Below are positions 952 to 22,474 of a stretch of 23,105 nt of DNA, piece after piece. How positions within the stretch are numbered: position 1 is the first letter of the stretch; each line of letters opens with the position of its first letter. A model generated the notes under the pieces. The model ran no database searches. It was given only the letters and a program-made list of their open reading frames with translations, and was not told the origin of the DNA. The position numbers were made by a program, and so were the translations under genes. This DNA is from a virus. The stretch is from positions 1 through 23,105 of the IMG/VR virus record IMGVR_UViG_3300025647_000291. The stretch is one strand, 5' to 3'.

Positions 952-1629
952 ATTAAATGAAAGTTCTAAATAAGGTCTTTGCAGAAACATATCAACCTGT
1001 TGTAAAAATTTTCCTGCTAAATCCTTTCTGAAAGCAATAAAAAAAACTCGTTCTCTTCTTTGTGGCACTCCCATTTTAGAAGCATCTAACAAAAAGTGCT
1101 GGACATAATACCCCGCTTCGTCTAAATCAGAATAAATCTTCTTAACATACTCTTTAGCTGAACCTTGGATAATACCCTTTACATTCTCAGCTACTACTAT
1201 TTTAGGTTGTAATCTCTTAGCTAAATCAATAAAATCAAAAAATAAAGTATCTAGAACCTGCTCTGATTGTCCCTCTCTAAATTTCTTCTTTTTACCCCAA
1301 TCTTTGTCTCTATTGCCTGCCATTGAAAAGCTTGAACAAGGAGGAGAGCCGTCCAATATATCTAGGTTAAACAGCTCTTTTGGTAGATCGTCACGATCTT
1401 TAAAAGTAGTGATTGACTCAATAAATGAATATTTAGGTTTATGATTCTCTCTATATACTTCCATCATTTTATGGTCTATATCAAGTGCGCCAATAACATC
1501 ATAGCCTGCAAGCTTGTAACCCATTGTAGAACCACCACCACAAGAAAAACAGCTAAAAACCTTTGATTTATGATTTTCAATCCCTTTAGATGTATAACCA
1601 TCTGATAATTTCCAATTATAATTAAACAT
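949..1629 (-). CDS. C5-cytosine DNA methyltransferase, N-terminal catalytic part (motifs I-VIII)
   Basis: The protein (226 aa from ATG 1629) transfers a methyl group from S-adenosylmethionine to cytosine C5. Motif I is the variant FSCGGGSTMGY (residues 28-38), followed by the acidic strand GALDID (47-52). Motif IV is GSPPCSSFS (94-102) with catalytic Cys98. Motif VI is VAENVKG (146-152) and motif VIII is QRRERVFFIAF (190-200). The family normally runs over 300 residues and ends with a target recognition domain and motifs IX-X. Here the frame stops at TAG just after motif VIII, and those motifs follow downstream in the same frame. The start is ATG 1629 rather than TTG 1632, because AAAGG lies 7 bases upstream of the ATG. 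The gene lies between terminase and portal, and a promoter-like motif precedes it. No matching restriction enzyme is visible, so protection of phage DNA from host restriction is the likely role if it is active. Confidence 0.85.
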   Translation of the reverse strand: MFNYNWKLSDGYTSKGIENHKSKVFSCFSCGGGSTMGYKLAGYDVIGALDIDHKMMEVYRENHKPKYSFIESITTFKDRDDLPKELFNLDILDGSPPCSSFSMAGNRDKDWGKKKKFREGQSEQVLDTLFFDFIDLAKRLQPKIVVAENVKGIIQGSAKEYVKKIYSDLDEAGYYVQHFLLDASKMGVPQRRERVFFIAFRKDLAGKFLQQVDMFLQRPYLELSFN

Positions 1630-7896: not shown

Positions 7897-8429
7897 ATAT
7901 CACCCTCATATTTATCGTTTTTACTATAACCTCTTGCTAAAAGCTCGTTAGTAATTCTAGTTGCTTCCTGTATCTGAGCTTTTGACTGATCTAAAAAACT
8001 CTGTTCCCAAGCTTGCTTGTTAGTTTTTCCTTTGATGAATAAACCTAGATATTTCTCTAGCACCTTCATTCTTACAGAGCAATACAGAGGAAAAGCCACA
8101 TCATCACTAGGTAACTGCTTCGGTTTTTCTGCTTCTCTTAGGCTAAACATCTTGCTTTGATACTCTGAACTCTCAAAGGTCTGCACTAGGGAACGATAAG
8201 AAAGCTTTTTAGCGTGTCTTATGGTTAGCCCTATACAAAGCTCTAGAGATGAATAATTAACACTAGGAAGGCTCCTAACAAGCTCAGAAGCGATGCTGTA
8301 AGCCATATTCTTGACCTCTTCATCTACAATATCTTTCAACCTGCCTTCTCTTGCATATTCTTCTAGTATTTCTCTGTATAGAAGCTCGCTGAATTTTACA
8401 ATCTTATCCAATTTGCTTGCCTTTCTCAT
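7893..8429 (-). CDS. Helical protein next to the replication initiator (178 aa), possible helicase-loader position
   Basis: No family is recognised. The protein looks almost wholly alpha-helical, with DEEVKNMAYSIASELVRSL, LELCIGLTIRHAKKL and a C-terminal EATRITNELLARGYSK. It follows the initiator directly and overlaps it by 26 bases. In lambda-like phages that slot holds the helicase loader (P), but no loader motif is visible, so this is position only. The start is uncertain: ATG 8429 lacks a ribosome binding site, while TTG 8411 has GAAAGG 8 bases upstream, matching the pattern of neighbouring genes. Confidence 0.6.
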   Translation of the reverse strand: MRKASKLDKIVKFSELLYREILEEYAREGRLKDIVDEEVKNMAYSIASELVRSLPSVNYSSLELCIGLTIRHAKKLSYRSLVQTFESSEYQSKMFSLREAEKPKQLPSDDVAFPLYCSVRMKVLEKYLGLFIKGKTNKQAWEQSFLDQSKAQIQEATRITNELLARGYSKNDKYEGDI

Positions 8430-9267
8430 CTATCAGATTCAAGCCCTGTGACATTCTAGCTCGTTTTAGAATATCTAAGCCTGATTCTGATAGTTTTCTA
8501 TCCTGTTCTCTGAAACTTAAATTATTTGCTTTATTTGGCTTCCAATAATTAAACCAAGTATTCAACTGACCACCCACTGAAAAAGTATAAGCTCCCTTTC
8601 TAGTGAAAGTATCCTGAAACTTTGTTATACCGAAGTCATCTTCTAAGATCATCTGCTCATAGAAATATTTTAAAAATTCATCAGGGTACTTATTAGGATT
8701 ATTCTCTTTAAACCTTCTCATAGAGGTTTTGAGATACTCTATCTGTTTTTCATTATCACCTACTAGAGATTTAAAAAACTTCTTTCTATCGAGATGGACG
8801 GAAGGCTTTGCCTTCTCTTTCATATTGTTATTTCTTTTATTTACATTCATCTCTTTAGTGTCGATCTCACGGACTAGGGGAGGTCTGTCTGACGGACTAG
8901 GTAGGTCGATCTTACGGACTAGGTCTTTAGGTGGTACGCCTGACAGACTAGGTATATTCGGCTCTAAAAATGTATATTGATTTACATTATTGTTTGTGTT
9001 AGTTTCTTTAGTTCTTTGAATATGAATTAGCTGTTTTTCTTCTAATGATTTTAATGATTTGATCAATCTGTCTTTGCTTATATCTATTTCTTGTCTAAGT
9101 CTATTTAGACTCGGGAAACATTCTTTTGTATTGTAATTCATATACCGCATAAGATTACAATAAACTGCTAAATCATAAACATTAAGATTAAGAACGACCA
9201 CATTCTTCACTTGAATAAAGTCATCTTTAATGTTGCTTAGTACCTTAAATTTTTCGGAAATTTTCAT
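8404..9267 (-). CDS. Replication initiator with N-terminal winged helix (lambda O-like layout), 287 aa
   Basis: Residues about 20-100 form a winged helix-turn-helix: LNVYDLAVYCNLMRYMN, CFPSLNRLRQEIDISKDRL as the turn and recognition helix, then SLKSLEEKQLIHIQR and a wing. This is the domain used by phage O-type initiators to bind ori. A low-complexity linker rich in Pro, Ser and Lys (about 105-165) follows, then a conserved-looking C-terminal domain (PDEFLKYFYEQMILEDDF; FNYWKPNKAN). The linker DNA holds four direct repeats, as lambda ori lies inside O. The start is ATG 9267 with GGAG six bases upstream; ATG 9279 and TTG 9306 lie inside the structured leader and lack a site. Confidence 0.75.
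   Translation of the reverse strand: MKISEKFKVLSNIKDDFIQVKNVVVLNLNVYDLAVYCNLMRYMNYNTKECFPSLNRLRQEIDISKDRLIKSLKSLEEKQLIHIQRTKETNTNNNVNQYTFLEPNIPSLSGVPPKDLVRKIDLPSPSDRPPLVREIDTKEMNVNKRNNNMKEKAKPSVHLDRKKFFKSLVGDNEKQIEYLKTSMRRFKENNPNKYPDEFLKYFYEQMILEDDFGITKFQDTFTRKGAYTFSVGGQLNTWFNYWKPNKANNLSFREQDRKLSESGLDILKRARMSQGLNLIDEKGKQIG
8860..8953 (-). repeat. Four iteron-like 20-bp direct repeats inside the initiator gene, candidate replication origin
   Basis: Units begin at 8860, 8883, 8905 and 8934 (spacing 23, 22 and 29 bases). They share the pattern GTC-G-TCT-n-ACGGACTAGG-t; the ACGGACTAGG core is identical in three units and reads ACAGACTAGG in the fourth. Both flanks (8820-8860 and 8955-9010) are AT-rich. 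Spacing near two helical turns on one face, plus position in the linker of an O-like initiator, is the lambda-type ori layout. Confidence 0.65.
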
Positions 9268-9277
9268 AAAAAACTCC

Positions 9278-9367
9278 ATCGGGTGGCTAGGGGGAGCGTC
9301 CAACAAGAACCCCTAGCCTTAAAGCATATGCTAACCCGATAGATAAATTCGTAGAGTTTGGACGCTC
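9278..9367 (-). ncRNA. Pseudoknotted leader in front of the replication initiator
   Basis: Three perfect inverted repeats interleave. B pairs 9294-9303 with 9358-9367 (GAGCGTCCAA, 10 bp). A pairs 9285-9293 with 9310-9318 (GGCTAGGGG, 9 bp). C pairs 9278-9284 with 9334-9340 (ATCGGGT, 7 bp). A palindrome AGCATATGCT sits at 9323-9332. One B strand lies in the loop of hairpin A, so A and B form a pseudoknot. On one side the arms C, A and B adjoin with no free base. Arm C ends directly at the GGAG ribosome binding site. It may be a regulatory RNA, or DNA structure for replication. Confidence 0.7.
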
Positions 9368-9389: not shown

Positions 9390-11603
9390 TTACACAGAAA
9401 ATAGGTCTATCTTAGTGTCAAGATCTAAAATAGTGTCAGAGTGATTCTGCTTATTTATGGCAAAATAGCTTTCTTTTAGTTCGATTGATATTGATTTTCT
9501 ACCCATCTTTAAAGCCTGACAACCCTCTGATCCGATACCACCAAATGGACTCAGAACCGTTTCACCTTCATTGCTGTATAAATGTAAAATTCTTTCGATT
9601 GTGTCGAGCTGTAAAGGGCAAATATGCTTTTCATCATTACCATCTCTTGCACTTCTGTAATTCAGTGTTCTTTTGTAGTCAACATCCATCCAAACAGGTG
9701 ATGCGTATTTTTGCCAAAGATCAACAGGAAGATAATCAGGCTTTGAGCTGTCTTTGTCTTGGTGTGTAATTGGCACTTCATTATCCCCTTCATTTCTAAA
9801 AAACAAAATATAATCAGGAATACCAACTCGACTCATGCTACTGTCTTTTTTAATGGTCTTATGAAGTAATCCTAGAGCCTTTGTTCTTTGCATCTCGGTC
9901 ACGGGATTCTTCCATATTGTTGTTCTAGCATGATAGATAAAACCCTCAGATGTAAACCAATCAACTAGCATACCTGAAAAGTCCCTCAAACCAATATATC
10001 CCTCTTTACCTTTCTGAATAGGCAAATCCATACAGTGAATGGCACATATTCTACCGCTCTTTAAAACTCTCTTTAATTCAGGGATCAGATATTTAAAATG
10101 TTGCTCAAATTGCTCATAATCTCTAACATTGCCCATGTCTTCCTTTTTATCTGAATAAACATAAAGCTCCGCAAATGGAGGACTAAATACTACAATATCT
10201 GCCGCATTATCTTCTATTTTCTTAATCTCCTGAACGCAGTCTCCGTTTAGCAAGTGGTATTTTTCTGTTTTAACTTCTCTAGATTCAATCATAAAGTTGC
10301 TCTTTCCTAGCTTAAAATTTTCATTTGACGAATATAAAGACATGTTTCTAATCATCTCTTTATGCTTTTTTTCTTTTTCAAGAATTGACGATCTAACATT
10401 TTTTTGAGACATTGGCACTAAGATATGGACTTTTACTTTCTCCTTTTGCCCAAATCTATAACACCTTCTAACTGCTTGATAAAATGCTTCAAACTTGAAA
10501 TCGTAGGAAGTAAAAACCATGTTATGGCATTGTTGGTAATTCATCCCAAAACTAGCAATTGATGTCTTTGTAATTAAATTATCAAAGTCCTCATTAGCAA
10601 ATCCATTGAGATTCTGAGCTTTAACAATAGGAGAGTCACTTCCTTGGACATTTTTTGAATCTGAAATAACCTTATTCAGCTCATCGGCTTCATCGTTCTT
10701 AAGCGTCCATATAATGGTTTGACCTTCGTGCTCATTAACTATTTCTAGGGTTTTAGCTATTCTCTCCGAGAAAGATTTTTTTAAGTCTCTATGTAGATCA
10801 GTTGCACTAACTGCAGTCTCACCAAACAAATCACCCGAATCATTATCAAACTCTATTAAGTGCTCAATGTACTCAATCTCAGGTAAGTCATATCCTTCCA
10901 TTTCAAAGCCTAGAGTTTTTGGATTATCGACAGAAATAGAGAATGAACATATAAATTTCCAAAAGTCATCTTGAGCGTGTTTTCGTAGTCTCCATTTTGA
11001 AGTTTCACCACCATCATGAACAAAGAACATGGCAAGCATTTCTAAATAGCTCATAGCACCTAAAAACTCCGAATGATTACCAAGCTCCATATGATCATTA
11101 GGAGATGGAGTGGCAGTACAGCATAGCTTATATCTATGACTCTTAAAGCTATCTATTAGCTTTGTAGATGTAGCCCCACCTCTGCCCTTCAAAATGGAAG
11201 ATTCATCTAAAACAACTCCGCAGAATTGAGAAACATCAACATTATCGAGCTGATCGTAGTTAGTAATAAATACACCCTGACCAAAAACTTCAGATTCTAG
11301 CTTCTCAATATTAATTCCAAATTTTGAACCTTCATTAATTGTTTGCTGTAAAATAGCTAAAGGGCATAAAATCAAAACAGGCTTGCTTTCATGTTTAGAG
11401 ACCTGATACGCCCATTCTAATTGCATTAGAGTTTTACCTAGACCGCAGTCAGCAAATACAGCATATCTGCCATTAAGAAGTGCTTTTTTTACTATATGCT
11501 TCTGAAAAGGAAACAGATTATCGTTTAACTTAGACTCTTCAACATCAAAGCCTGACGATATTACACTCTTTTCTTTTATTTTTAAGAACTCATTATAATC
11601 CAT
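9390..11603 (-). CDS. SNF2-type helicase fused to N4/N6-type DNA methyltransferase, 737 aa
   Basis: The N-terminal half is an SF2/SNF2 ATPase. Motif I is DCGLGKT (residues 52-58), motif II VLDESS (131-136), motif III CCTATPSPND (161-170), and motifs V-VI include SFGMNYQQC and QAVRRCYRFGQ (376-386). The C-terminal part is a DNA amino-methyltransferase. Motif IV is FSPPFAELY (473-481), a variant of (D/N/S)PP(Y/F), and motif I VLSPFGGIGSEG (683-694) comes near the end. IV before I is the beta-class order. Such fusions occur in other phages. The enzyme would track on DNA and methylate it. No partner nuclease is visible, so self-protection or genome marking is likely. Start ATG 11603 has CGAAAGG 7 bases upstream; a tRNA-like element lies in the leader. 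Confidence 0.9.
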   Translation of the reverse strand: MDYNEFLKIKEKSVISSGFDVEESKLNDNLFPFQKHIVKKALLNGRYAVFADCGLGKTLMQLEWAYQVSKHESKPVLILCPLAILQQTINEGSKFGINIEKLESEVFGQGVFITNYDQLDNVDVSQFCGVVLDESSILKGRGGATSTKLIDSFKSHRYKLCCTATPSPNDHMELGNHSEFLGAMSYLEMLAMFFVHDGGETSKWRLRKHAQDDFWKFICSFSISVDNPKTLGFEMEGYDLPEIEYIEHLIEFDNDSGDLFGETAVSATDLHRDLKKSFSERIAKTLEIVNEHEGQTIIWTLKNDEADELNKVISDSKNVQGSDSPIVKAQNLNGFANEDFDNLITKTSIASFGMNYQQCHNMVFTSYDFKFEAFYQAVRRCYRFGQKEKVKVHILVPMSQKNVRSSILEKEKKHKEMIRNMSLYSSNENFKLGKSNFMIESREVKTEKYHLLNGDCVQEIKKIEDNAADIVVFSPPFAELYVYSDKKEDMGNVRDYEQFEQHFKYLIPELKRVLKSGRICAIHCMDLPIQKGKEGYIGLRDFSGMLVDWFTSEGFIYHARTTIWKNPVTEMQRTKALGLLHKTIKKDSSMSRVGIPDYILFFRNEGDNEVPITHQDKDSSKPDYLPVDLWQKYASPVWMDVDYKRTLNYRSARDGNDEKHICPLQLDTIERILHLYSNEGETVLSPFGGIGSEGCQALKMGRKSISIELKESYFAINKQNHSDTILDLDTKIDLFSV

Positions 11604-16779: not shown

Positions 16780-19509
16780 CTATGTTTGAGCGAATCTGAT
16801 GTTAATGCCGATGTTGTATAGCTCACTAATTAATGTGGAACTTGAATTGGTAATTTCAACTTGCCCGCTTGTATTTACTTCATACCAAACACCTGTGACC
16901 GCTTGCCAAGAGCCTTCGTAGGTGCATGAAACTAAACCTGTTAGCTTAGCATTGGGTCTGAGAGCTGTGGGTAAAGTAAAGAGAACCACAGAACCGCCCG
17001 CTAGAAGAAATTGAGATGCCTTCAATTTAACAACTCCCTCTATCTCGGTGCCATCTATGCCATTATCTCGGTATCTAGCTGCCCTGTATCCGCTTCTAGC
17101 CTCCCAATTACTTTGTAAAGTAGCAGTCGTCCACGAGCCAGGTGTTACACCGCCACCACCGCCATTTAGGTTAAAGGTGGTTCCGCCTTCTCGACCTTTT
17201 AGGTTGGTTCCATCAAACCAAATATCGCCATTTGAAGGGCTTGAGTTAGTTGAAGTTTGTAACTGAAGAGCACCTGATTTGAAAGTGGCTATATGTTTTT
17301 CATCACCTGCTGAATCAGCACAATTTATTCTCAGTTCGTTACTTGCGGCTAAAGAATTACTGCCTGCAAATATCTCGGCATATCCATTTTGCTGTTTGAG
17401 AGTTGCATATCGCTTGCCTGATGTTCCTGCACCTGACCCCCAAAAAGAAACAAAGCTACTCAATACAGACGAAGTAGTGTTTTGCAAATATATTGGATTG
17501 TCACTTAAAAATCCGACATCTGTCACTGATTGTAAGTCTTGAGTGAGTGGTGTCCAACTTGACCAATTTGTTCCACTATCATCTGTGGTTCTAAAAGCCA
17601 TTTTTGAATCGGCTGAGTCAGGCTCAAATATCGTTTGGATAATTCGCCCACTATTGGAATATACATTTACAATTTTTCTAGTAGAAGCACTCCAACCGCT
17701 TGGAATGTTTGTTAAGGCAGAATCGGAAGTTAAGAAACTGCCTGAGATAATAAATGTATTTAAATCACTACCAAAAACTCCTTGATCCACTCCAAATAAT
17801 TTAAATGTCTTGGTGTCCTCAGTGTATCTGAAAGCGTTATTAGTGAACCACAAATCGCCACTTGTTACGCTTGCGTTGGTGTGAGCTTCAAATGTTATCT
17901 TATTATTGCCTGTGGTTTCGCCAACACCCAAAACTGACGCTAGATCTTGTGATCCACCTGCTTGAGAATCCACATAACTCTTGGTGGCTACCTGTTGAGC
18001 TAAAGTTGGATCATTAGCAGTTAAAGTTCCACCTGTGGTGTCTATGTCACCATCAATTTTCAAAATGCCACTTTGACCATATATAAAGCCTGATAATACA
18101 TCTGAATTATCTAATATCTTTAGCCCGCTTTGATTAGCAAGAGTTAAAAAAACACCTGATAGCCTAAATGTAGCATTTGCAGAATCCCAATAAAAAGGAG
18201 GTGCAGAAGTGTCATCGCATACAGAATAAGTACCATCTATATTTTTTAAAACAATAGCCCCGTTCAAGTCAGAATTTGGAATATTTAAGGTATTTCTCCA
18301 AATTTTTTGCTCTAAAACCCCTGCTGTATCTGTAATAGTTGGAGAGCCATCTGTGACAAGTTTTTCATAATAGATTTTACAAGTAGATGCAGGATCGAAA
18401 GTAATATCTTGATAGATATGCAAAACCTCTACATAAATATTAGATCCTGTAGAAACATCTCCAATTTTCAAAGTAGGATTAGAACCTTGGCAAATGATAG
18501 CTAGAGAGACTTCATCTGCTCCATTTGTGCTAGTTCCATCGCTGAAGTTTTGCCCTCTACCAATAAAAAGAAGATCATTGCCTGAACCATTAAAAGGCTC
18601 TAGAATATCTCCATCTGTAACATTTAAACCGACTGAACCACCTGAGAAAGTTTTTCTTAGTGAACCTGATAAGGCTGTTGGCGTGGTAATAATACCTAAG
18701 AAATTATTAACATTTATCTCAGCTGTGGCATATCCATTTAATTTATCAGGATCTACAAAACCTGAAAGAACATTAGAGCCATTGTTAAAAAAGTCTGTGC
18801 TTTTAGGTTTAATGCCACTCTCACCACTCACTGCATCGGTTTGAATATCTAAAATAGGAACTGTCCAAGTTTGTCTTACAAAATCCGAAGCTCCTACGCT
18901 ACAAGTAAAGTTGCCATCTTGATACTCATATTGGAATTTAGTTTGTCCTGCTTCGCCACCATTTGAAAGCTGAACATCAACAGGAATAGAGCTAAATACC
19001 TTTTCCATTTTAACGGATACATCTTGAATGAAAATATTATCAAATCCCACATAGGTTATTTCATTGCCTAGAAAGTTCAAAGCTGTGAAAACAGGAGAAC
19101 CGCTAGCACCTCTGTATCTTAGCTGTCTAACTCCACCATTAGGATCATTAGCAAAGATCTGAGAACCTGAATAAACAACTACCTCGCAAATACCATAAAC
19201 ATCTAAATTTTGAATAGCAGTTGATGGTGCTACAATATTATCTCTCATATAGAGAAATTTTGTATTCCTTACATCTGATAAGGCTGTTACATAATCGTCC
19301 CAAGTGAAAATATTATAAATGCCTTCTGCATTAATATCTACAAACTGAGTGCCATCCCAAAATTTATCAGGATCAATATAATAGAAGTTGTTTCCATCTC
19401 TCCAAATGATTTGCTTAATATCAGTTGCCCAAGATATTTGCTTATCTTTGAGATTAGCTAATAGATTAGCTTCTGTATCGTGTATTCTAAGAATATGTTT
19501 GTCTGCCAT
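16780..19509 (-). CDS. Tail fibre / receptor-binding protein, 909 aa
   Basis: The N-terminus (MADKHILRIHDTEANLLANL) is of the kind that docks fibres to the tail. The shaft is Ser/Thr/Gly/Asn-rich and beta-helical in look. It contains repeated display modules such as SGDLWFTNNAFRYTED (about 554-569) and NGDIWFDGTNLKGREGG (about 765-781). A linker VATKSYVDSQ (about 504-513) is common in fibres, and a poly-Gly hinge (NLNGGGGG) precedes the tip. The last 115 residues (YRAARYRDNG ... IEGVVKLKA ... FTLPTALRPNAKL) form the C-terminal head domain seen in many phage fibres, the likely receptor contact. It starts right after the 986-aa gene and has no clear ribosome binding site, so coupling is likely. 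Confidence 0.85.
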   Translation of the reverse strand: MADKHILRIHDTEANLLANLKDKQISWATDIKQIIWRDGNNFYYIDPDKFWDGTQFVDINAEGIYNIFTWDDYVTALSDVRNTKFLYMRDNIVAPSTAIQNLDVYGICEVVVYSGSQIFANDPNGGVRQLRYRGASGSPVFTALNFLGNEITYVGFDNIFIQDVSVKMEKVFSSIPVDVQLSNGGEAGQTKFQYEYQDGNFTCSVGASDFVRQTWTVPILDIQTDAVSGESGIKPKSTDFFNNGSNVLSGFVDPDKLNGYATAEINVNNFLGIITTPTALSGSLRKTFSGGSVGLNVTDGDILEPFNGSGNDLLFIGRGQNFSDGTSTNGADEVSLAIICQGSNPTLKIGDVSTGSNIYVEVLHIYQDITFDPASTCKIYYEKLVTDGSPTITDTAGVLEQKIWRNTLNIPNSDLNGAIVLKNIDGTYSVCDDTSAPPFYWDSANATFRLSGVFLTLANQSGLKILDNSDVLSGFIYGQSGILKIDGDIDTTGGTLTANDPTLAQQVATKSYVDSQAGGSQDLASVLGVGETTGNNKITFEAHTNASVTSGDLWFTNNAFRYTEDTKTFKLFGVDQGVFGSDLNTFIISGSFLTSDSALTNIPSGWSASTRKIVNVYSNSGRIIQTIFEPDSADSKMAFRTTDDSGTNWSSWTPLTQDLQSVTDVGFLSDNPIYLQNTTSSVLSSFVSFWGSGAGTSGKRYATLKQQNGYAEIFAGSNSLAASNELRINCADSAGDEKHIATFKSGALQLQTSTNSSPSNGDIWFDGTNLKGREGGTTFNLNGGGGGVTPGSWTTATLQSNWEARSGYRAARYRDNGIDGTEIEGVVKLKASQFLLAGGSVVLFTLPTALRPNAKLTGLVSCTYEGSWQAVTGVWYEVNTSGQVEITNSSSTLISELYNIGINIRFAQT

Positions 19510-19513
19510 TTAG

Positions 19514-22474
19514 CTAAACCTCATCTTGTATGTTTTCGTTATTCTCATCTGTGGTATCTTGCCAAAGCTCTAGAGAATTATCAAATGAATCTTGTATAGT
19601 GTTATCTACTCTAACATCTAGATCAAACAAAATGCCCTCTACATCAATACTAGGTAAATTCTCCGATACATTTTTTGCAATACCTGTAATCAAAAACTCA
19701 TAGTAAAGATCATCGGTAATATTTGGTAGCTTAACTTCTAATCTTTTTCCTATATCCCAAAATTTACCTATTTCATACGGAACTTTAAAATTGAATTTAT
19801 TTCTAGGAACTACTTTAGGATTAAAATCTGTGTTAGATCCCATAAAAGAGAGCCATTTTCTAATGTACCAATAAGCAGATGAATCCTTATTTATCCAAGT
19901 ATGATTAGATAGTATTTTTGGTGGCTCATTGATAACGCCATAGTAAAGAAACAAAGCTCTAGCTCTTCTCCAAAGTTTAGCTCTAGCTTCTTGACTTAAA
20001 AAGTCCATTCCTTGACAAGCATTTGCTTGATCTTCTTCTGTGGTTAAATCTGATCCTGTGTTAGTTATAGCCATTGACTTAGTGAACTTCTTTGAACCTA
20101 CATCAAAAGCATAATTTACAACAGGCTCACAAAAGATATTTCTAGAATCCTGCTCAATTCTCTGTCCCCAAGATAACATCTTAGTTTGATCTATCTTCTC
20201 TAGGTTGCTTTGAGTTGTCTTTTGAGCTACCTGAGTGACTCTTTCTTTAAAGTCATCACCTACCCAAGATATGAGGAAAAATCTGTTACAGATGTCCTTA
20301 GAAGCTGCTCTAGAGCTTAGAGATTTATTATCTGTTATCTGAGTTGCTATTTCTACCTCATACCACCCTAAAAGATCTAGCTCGCTCTGTAAATATGATC
20401 CATTAGTATCTAGGTCTAAGTTTAAATAGCTCTGAGCATTTATGTTAGTATAGCCTTTACCCCATCCACTAGCAGGAGTTGATACCCCTAGATTAGAGTA
20501 GTTTTGCAATAGCTTAATATGAGCTAAAGCACCAATAGGATCTTTGATTAAATCGTTAGACTGCCATTCTACGCCACTCAAAGGACTTGTAATATCAGTA
20601 TCATATAATCGCCCTTTGAAATTCGTATATAATCCCTTATCTAAGCTAGACTTTTGAGTAAAAACAAAACCAAGTTGCTCTATATCTATATCTATGATAT
20701 TGCTTGAAATAGTAGCACCTGAATCTAAAGTGAACTCGACCACAAAGACGATTTTATTAAACTTTAAAAATTCATCTAGGTTAGATATGCCTAAATCAAT
20801 GAGCTTATAACCACTTAAATCTGCAAAGCCATCATCTCCCCAAAATGAATTATCATTTAAGCCATTGGTAGAATAATTAGAAGCAAAATTGTCTATAAAT
20901 TGGTTTGCTCCTGCACTATAAGTAGTGGTTTCGTTGAGCTCTACAACCTCTTGAATATCTCCATACCATTTATCTGTTTTAACCTTAAATGATATGCTTC
21001 CGTTCAAATTGCCACTCGTACTCTGAACTCTACAAAATGAGTTTAATATTATATAGCAGTTTTCAAAACTATCAGGAATTGAATTTTTAAATATCTCGTT
21101 GATTGATAACTCATAAGTTCTAGCAAATTCCATTAAACCGACTGAGGTAAACGCTCCATCATAAACAAAAGGCGTGGATCCATCTTCTGTTCTTACATCT
21201 CCTAATGTATCAGTTTTCGATACAAAATCACCAAAGCCACCACCTCTATAATACAAGCCTAGATCAGTTTGAAAAGTCCACCCTGAGCCATCTAAATACT
21301 GAGATGAGTTTCTAACGGCTATGTTATTGCTTTGCTGAATACTAAAACCTAAAGCACCATCAAAACCCTGCTCAAACTCTGATTCGTTTAACTTTAGCTC
21401 ATTATCATTTAGCTCATCTTGGTTAATATCTACCGCAAAAGAAGGGAGCTGTTTATATCCATTGTCATAAGAATAAATCTGAGCATTTGAAGTTATAGCT
21501 TGATCCTGAGAGTTAAAAAACCCTTCGCACTTCCAAAAGTCTGAGTTATACTCTTTTCTTACATCTATAAACTGATAAAGTGAAACCTCTAAAGGATCAG
21601 GTTCTGCACTAAAATTATGCTCTAAAGTTATAGTTAGCTCACCCTGAAAACCTAGCCCACCTTGAACTATGTTTACAACCTTGCCTATATTACCTTCTTG
21701 AAGTCCTTGAATGCATTTGAAGTATAAAAAACCCTCATTCATTAAGGCATTTAGGTTAGTTAGATCTAAGCCAAAAGATTCACTTACTACCAATACCTTT
21801 AAATCGTTATATGTTCCACTAATCCACTTACTGACATAATTAGTTTCCGTATCAGACGAAACTGCTAAAACCTCTGCTCTATCCCCTGTTTGAAGAAAAA
21901 AGGTTTTTTCATTCTCACCGATAGTTAAAGGTAAACTTTCTCCGATAGCTTCCGAATCTGTAAAAATCTGAACATCTAAATTTGCATTATCCGACTTTTT
22001 AAAGTCCTCAGTAATAACAAAGCCTAAATTTGAGTCTCTAGCTTCCTGAGAGCTTCTAACAGGTATGTTATAGGTGCTTTTATCAAATGAAGGTATATCG
22101 CACACACCTGCGTAAATACTACCCTGAAAAGCCCCATCTATCCACTCAATGATAAAACATCTTGACCCGTGGAGTGAATAATTTTCACCAAATGCAAGCA
22201 AAAACTTTTTCCAAAATATCTCAGTATTTTTAATAGTGATATTCAATCCATCAATATTTGCAATATCGCCAAAACGCTCAACCTTAACCGATTTACTTAT
22301 TGGTGATATTCCATCTCTTGCTAAAATGTCTTTGCCATAAATATAGGGAGCTGTATCAGGAAAAGAACCACCTAGAAACCACTCAAAAACACCATTCACT
22401 AAGCCTATGCTTGTATCTGTTGGAGTATCGGGTGAATCTACCTCTATGCGAACAGAAAAATTAAACTTACTCAC
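19514..22474 (-). CDS. Large tail structural protein (986 aa)
   Basis: No family is firmly recognised. The protein is long, beta-rich and acidic, with many Asn/Ser/Asp. It starts MSKFNFSVRIEVDSPDTPTD and contains an aromatic domain near residues 130-160 (CFIIEWIDGAFQGSIYAGVC). The C-terminal part (YYEFLITGIAKNVSENL, followed by DVEGILFDLD) looks like a baseplate or tail-tip fold. Size and position just before the fibre gene suggest the tail tip or central baseplate hub that carries the fibre. The start is GTG 22474 with AAAGG 7 bases upstream, overlapping the preceding gene's stop by 8 bases. Confidence 0.7.
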   Translation of the reverse strand: MSKFNFSVRIEVDSPDTPTDTSIGLVNGVFEWFLGGSFPDTAPYIYGKDILARDGISPISKSVKVERFGDIANIDGLNITIKNTEIFWKKFLLAFGENYSLHGSRCFIIEWIDGAFQGSIYAGVCDIPSFDKSTYNIPVRSSQEARDSNLGFVITEDFKKSDNANLDVQIFTDSEAIGESLPLTIGENEKTFFLQTGDRAEVLAVSSDTETNYVSKWISGTYNDLKVLVVSESFGLDLTNLNALMNEGFLYFKCIQGLQEGNIGKVVNIVQGGLGFQGELTITLEHNFSAEPDPLEVSLYQFIDVRKEYNSDFWKCEGFFNSQDQAITSNAQIYSYDNGYKQLPSFAVDINQDELNDNELKLNESEFEQGFDGALGFSIQQSNNIAVRNSSQYLDGSGWTFQTDLGLYYRGGGFGDFVSKTDTLGDVRTEDGSTPFVYDGAFTSVGLMEFARTYELSINEIFKNSIPDSFENCYIILNSFCRVQSTSGNLNGSISFKVKTDKWYGDIQEVVELNETTTYSAGANQFIDNFASNYSTNGLNDNSFWGDDGFADLSGYKLIDLGISNLDEFLKFNKIVFVVEFTLDSGATISSNIIDIDIEQLGFVFTQKSSLDKGLYTNFKGRLYDTDITSPLSGVEWQSNDLIKDPIGALAHIKLLQNYSNLGVSTPASGWGKGYTNINAQSYLNLDLDTNGSYLQSELDLLGWYEVEIATQITDNKSLSSRAASKDICNRFFLISWVGDDFKERVTQVAQKTTQSNLEKIDQTKMLSWGQRIEQDSRNIFCEPVVNYAFDVGSKKFTKSMAITNTGSDLTTEEDQANACQGMDFLSQEARAKLWRRARALFLYYGVINEPPKILSNHTWINKDSSAYWYIRKWLSFMGSNTDFNPKVVPRNKFNFKVPYEIGKFWDIGKRLEVKLPNITDDLYYEFLITGIAKNVSENLPSIDVEGILFDLDVRVDNTIQDSFDNSLELWQDTTDENNENIQDEV

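Follow-up and report, generated by a model that had tools for sequence, protein, structure and literature searches.

Leader of the replication initiator gene

The window, meaning the whole stretch of 23,105 nucleotides that was analysed, carries on its minus strand a replication initiator gene and, upstream of it, a gene for a fused helicase-methyltransferase. The gap between these two genes holds a leader built from three interleaved perfect inverted repeats (arms B, A and C). These repeats are real, and both their positions and their interleaving agree with the original prediction, in which they were read as a pseudoknotted leader of the replication gene, next to its ribosome-binding site and possibly a compact regulatory RNA; the RNA part of that reading is supported. 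The features are given below in the order of the minus strand, with B', C', D' and A' as the 3' strands of the helices.

9390-11603, minus strand: gene for a fused SNF2-type helicase and N6/N4 DNA methyltransferase, upstream of the leader
9367-9358, minus strand: helix B (pseudoknot, 10 bp), 5' strand, GAGCGTCCAA
9357-9344, minus strand: linker between B and the extended helix C, ACUCUACGAAUUUA, with CUC and AAUUU conserved in the alignments
9343-9334, minus strand: helix C, 5' strand, a 7-bp core (ATCGGGT, 9340-9334) plus UCU (9343-9341)
9332-9323, minus strand: hairpin D, the palindrome AGCA-UA-UGCU, between C and A
9318-9310, minus strand: helix A (9 bp), 5' strand, GGCTAGGGG
9309-9304, minus strand: loop UUCUUG, which must cross helix B
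9303-9294, minus strand: helix B, 3' strand, TTGGACGCTC, in the loop of hairpin A
9293-9285, minus strand: helix A, 3' strand, CCCCTAGCC
9284-9275, minus strand: helix C, 3' strand, ACCCGAT (9284-9278) plus GGA (9277-9275) of the ribosome-binding site
9277-9274, minus strand: ribosome-binding site GGAG, directly 3' of the core of C' and upstream of the ATG at 9267
8404-9267, minus strand: replication initiator gene (HTH_36, weak DnaD_N)
8856-8954, minus strand: four iterons of 22-24 bp inside the initiator gene, a probable origin separate from the leader

Hairpin D and the three-pair extension of helix C were absent from the earlier reading. In this extension, UCU pairs with GGA through two standard pairs and one U·G, and three of the four bases of the ribosome-binding site are paired. 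The strand order is 5'-B C D D' A B' A' C'-3', where helix B joins the loop of hairpin A to the 5' end. As had been noted before, one B strand lies in that loop, the arms B', A' and C' adjoin without a spacer (9303-9278), and C' abuts the GGAG. The unbroken strand made of B', A' and C' allows helices B, A and C to stack as a helix of 26-29 bp; in that case the loop following A would cross helix B, and the linker of 14-17 bases between B and C would run back along the stack. The resulting shape would resemble an H-type pseudoknot whose strand order is permuted, and would include a three-way junction.

To gauge the possibility of a chance origin, which the original prediction had thought small, the whole window was dinucleotide-shuffled 120 times; with both strands considered, this layout with 26 or more pairs appeared a single time. 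The layout alone is thus unlikely by chance, though possible. The recurrence of the leader with compensatory changes in related phages, described below, argues more strongly for a non-chance origin than the shuffles do.

Elsewhere on the minus strand of the window, two large proteins of 909 and 986 aa are encoded by adjacent genes (16780-19509 and 19514-22474); neither had a match in Pfam, PHROG or NCBIfam.

Copies of the leader in related phages

Related phages, contig L057 among them, were retrieved by a terminase search. One contig (L001/L047) is identical to the window and adds no information. A first covariance model was built from the window leader alone, with helices C, D and A and with helix B left out. 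This model recovered a leader in contig L057 (78 bits, E 9e-15) and also found copies in L056 and L061 (42 bits, E 1.9e-6), whose leader sequences are identical to each other. The features of these contigs are the following.

L057 1211-1325: the same leader, with arms changed yet complementary, ahead of the replication operon
L057 1320-1559: ORF of 79 aa between leader and initiator, overlapping the initiator ORF
L057 1877-1972: four iterons of 22-24 bp inside the initiator gene
L056 5255-5366 and L061 3625-3736: leader
L056 4598-5919 and L061 2968-4289: leader with a gene for a NUMOD4-HNH homing endonuclease after it, between the portal and Mu-F-like genes

Helix B of L056 is formed by GAGCCTAGC with GCTAGGCTC, with 9 pairs intact, and these pairs are an independent check because helix B was absent from the model that found this copy. 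Over an overlap of 4309 bp, L056 and L057 are 99.8% identical; they therefore come from one phage species, which holds two diverged copies of the leader about 9.6 kb apart. The comparison set thus comprises three distinct leader sequences from two phage lineages, and the tail GGAG-(6 to 8)-ATG is kept in all three.

The leader at the initiator operon is common to both lineages, and the L057 initiator homologue is about 40% identical to that of the window. The 79-aa protein of L057 has no Pfam match; by eye it looks winged-helix-like, and it starts with MKIS, as the window initiator does. Regarding the gene upstream of the window leader, the helicase-methyltransferase is about 74% identical to genes in many other phage contigs (L004-L042), whose surroundings otherwise differ and which lack the leader. 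On this comparison, it is a mobile, recently exchanged gene. Because these relatives are without the leader, the helicase-methyltransferase and initiator genes form no stable unit: the leader stays with the initiator operon, whereas the upstream methyltransferase moves.

The leader is not a standard part of the endonuclease family either, since in five relatives from other phages the start of the endonuclease gene adjoins or overlaps another gene and leaves no room for it. Moreover, the portal-to-Mu-F-like stretch of L059 (86% DNA identity) and of L055, which belongs to the window's own phage, gave no match to the leader model, and no endonuclease ORF was listed there. For this reason, the endonuclease and leader of L056 and L061 look like an insertion.

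Further searches were carried out in other sequences. A DNA pattern for arms B'A' gave mostly chance matches in coding DNA, and one for B'A'C' recovered L057 and otherwise mostly chance matches, with nothing new. Scanning viral contigs with the alignment of the rep proteins returned L057 only. In bacterial genomes, the relatives from the terminase scan did not exceed about 45% identity, came mainly from Bacteroidota and lacked the leader, and the search with the initiator C-terminus gave no match. Covariance searches of 694 genomes in two phyla and of six phage records found no leader. A weak model match within the window (1363-1453, E 0.27) was rejected, as it lies inside a C5-methyltransferase gene and vanishes with a better model.

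Covariation and strand of the structure

An alignment of the three sequences with the pseudoknot included (A8) contains 33 pairs, and 99% of its cells are paired. Changes on both sides of the pair were present in 14 of the 33 pairs and in every helix (4 of 10 in B, 3 of 10 in C, 2 of 4 in D and 5 of 9 in A), so that the compensatory changes proposed as a check for stems A, B and C were indeed found. None of 500 shuffles reached this covariation, and sliding the partners by 1-3 columns lowered the pairing to 41-46%. This alignment was fitted to C, D and A, which favors those helices; helix B was not fitted. With an unfitted alignment, RNAalifold recovered C and A too. One pair of hairpin D is non-standard in L056. 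The three C pairs covering the ribosome-binding site are invariant in the three sequences, so covariation is uninformative for them, and the ribosome-site side of the extension would be conserved regardless. Taking these data together, the leader is almost certainly a conserved structured RNA of the mRNA.

Wobble pairs (U·G or G·U) occur at alignment columns 35/102, 42/95 and 67/88. Read on the opposite strand, these pairs would become A·C mismatches, which assigns the structure to the sense RNA. This bears on the other part of the original prediction, a folded DNA element for replication, considered here as single-stranded DNA with a role in the initiation of replication or in packaging. The initiator gene does adjoin the leader, and hairpins occur in the origins of other replicons. 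However, the G·U pairs are compatible with the mRNA strand alone, the position of the fold is fixed to GGAG-ATG in all copies, that of the endonuclease included, and the iterons within the initiator gene fit an origin better, which makes a DNA element highly improbable. The iteron sequences are entirely different between the window phage and L057. The lambda O gene also carries its iterons internally, and those found here are probable lambda-O-like replication origins and a better candidate for that role than the leader, which would leave the latter free for RNA control.

A self-cleaving ribozyme with permuted helix order was considered as well, given that the helices cross twice, that loop bases are conserved and that permuted hammerheads exist (PMC10085705). 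It is hardly credible here, since no hammerhead core (CUGANGA/GAAA) was seen by inspection, the strand order is not that of HDV, as had been recognized from the start, and no Rfam ribozyme matched.

A coding reading of the leader was also rejected: the ATG within GATGGAG shares the reading frame only in the window, as that of L057 lies out of frame and L056 has none, so that it is not conserved.

Predicted masking of the ribosome-binding site

The ribosome-binding site is paired in the predicted fold of all copies. According to the energy model, in which the pseudoknot is ignored, the pairing probability of GGA is 0.95-1.0 in the window, L057 and L056, and the last G of GGAG is mostly free in the window and L057. 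This range for GGA holds whether the B arms are available or not. By these predictions, the layout of the leader is that of a translation-repressing leader.

It is therefore rather likely, in our judgement, that the leader acts in cis as a translational control element that masks the ribosome-binding site of the initiator mRNA and is locked by the pseudoknot. The 90-base element would be the structured 5' leader of this mRNA. Helix C is predicted to pair GGA of the GGAG and keep the ribosome off, and the coaxial B-A-C stack together with the 10-bp pseudoknot would lock the closed state. An event specific to one stage of the phage cycle could then open the fold and release initiator synthesis; the opener may be a protein or a small molecule, or else the message itself may be made or cut without the 5' strands.

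The signal that opens the fold is probably a trans-acting one serving a small regulon, rather than the initiator acting on its own message only. The earlier idea of autoregulation by the initiator, if limited to its own gene, fits poorly with the finding that one phage species has a further copy of the leader in front of a homing endonuclease gene. Because two unrelated genes of one species are involved, a trans signal or a stage-specific shortening of the mRNA is likelier than self-regulation alone. A small phage regulon sharing the leader seems to be the best explanation, given the two diverged copies in one species, of which one precedes the initiator operon and the other the homing endonuclease.

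In L056, the promoter scan found a promoter-like TTGAAT-17-TATAAT that ends 7 bases before helix B, and in L057 a TATATT was seen by eye at the same distance; the scan found no promoter directly ahead of the window and L057 leaders. A start at this point would suit another role for the fold, namely protection of the mRNA 5' end or an aid to translation, in which the stack resists nucleases and strain in the linker frees the ribosome-binding site. The linker must indeed span 26-29 bp if B, A and C stack. Nevertheless, the ribosome-binding site is predicted to be masked in every copy, and together with the result of the scan this makes such a role unlikely.

The masking could also be bypassed by an internal promoter or an RNase cut, as in I-TevI and mobE, so that shortened messages are translated at one stage. 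Such bypassing is known for phage homing endonucleases (PMC2988022), and the linker motif AATTTATCTA is conserved, AT-rich and similar to a promoter element. However, the motif has no -35 match and is not enriched within the window, and transcription from the predicted L056 promoter would include the entire fold. A bypass, moreover, needs no pseudoknot. It is thus a quite improbable account of the leader.

Comparison with known regulatory RNAs

The nearest known systems to the masking leader proposed here are the masking structures of phage homing endonucleases and T4 late genes, and the pseudoknot operator of gene 32. In the first group, a stable RNA structure masks the ribosome-binding site (PMC2988022). 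The likeness to I-TevI, segB, mobE and the T4 late genes is that the structure pairs the ribosome-binding site of a phage gene and that one copy of the leader precedes a homing endonuclease. By prediction, the leader would work as they do, but the fold and the range of genes differ: those are simple hairpins, whereas four helices with a pseudoknot are found here, ahead of an initiator too. A homing endonuclease lies downstream only in L056 and L061, and the window and L057 copies precede replication genes, which separates them from T4-type leaders. In the latter, a late promoter located inside the hairpin removes the 5' strand, while the promoter-like site of L056 precedes the fold and would retain the whole structure.

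In T4 and RB69, gene 32, also a phage replication gene, has an operator with a leader pseudoknot for which translational control has been demonstrated (PMC3014915). There, the pseudoknot is 67 bases upstream and the unstructured, A+U-rich ribosome-binding site is coated by gp32, whereas here the fold abuts and includes a paired ribosome-binding site. The strand order also differs, and the downstream gene encodes an initiator or an HNH endonuclease instead of a single-stranded DNA-binding protein. The E. coli rpsO/S15 operator likewise has a pseudoknot at the ribosome-binding site controlling initiation, but its topology and genes differ, and no ribosomal protein is involved here as far as seen. 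The H-type pseudoknot riboswitches SAM-II and preQ1-II resemble the leader in being compact pseudoknots at a masked ribosome-binding site; to our knowledge, its helix order is unlike that of either. Rfam covariance models gave no match at gathering score in the window, L056 or L057, only chance hits with E near 9. No published equivalent was found among the titles and abstracts covered, which include few subscription journals.

There are, furthermore, conserved bases that masking alone leaves unexplained. The linker has the conserved but unpaired stretches CUC and AAUUU, and the loop after A has UUCU; this loop reads UUCUUG in the window, UUCUG in L057 and UUCUAC in L056. The CUC could pair with either of two alternative partners, GAG of the ribosome-binding site or the 5' GAG of helix B, the latter predicted by the RNAalifold run, and this might provide a switch. 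Such bases are compatible with a ligand riboswitch of a new class, where the junction and pseudoknot would form a pocket and a metabolite, for example an infection-dependent one, would stabilize or free the masked site. The compact pseudoknot and junction lie directly at the ribosome-binding site, and the downstream genes are unrelated to each other. Nonetheless, we regard a metabolite-sensing leader as unlikely, because no Rfam riboswitch matched, the copies precede DNA-replication and mobile genes rather than metabolic ones, and the sequences are too few to separate pocket bases from shared ancestry. A broader view is tentatively possible, if doubtful: the leader could be a phage RNA switch of a new class, with an undescribed pseudoknot topology, that responds to a cue of the infection cycle and sets a common timing for synthesis of the initiator and of the homing endonuclease within one phage.

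Phage replication initiators need the right amount and timing, and few RNA elements controlling them are known. The covarying pseudoknot described here, a system of about 100 bases that one species carries twice, in front of genes with different functions, offers a concrete place to seek a new trans-acting phage regulator or ligand, and a homing endonuclease is found with the same kind of leader as a replication module.
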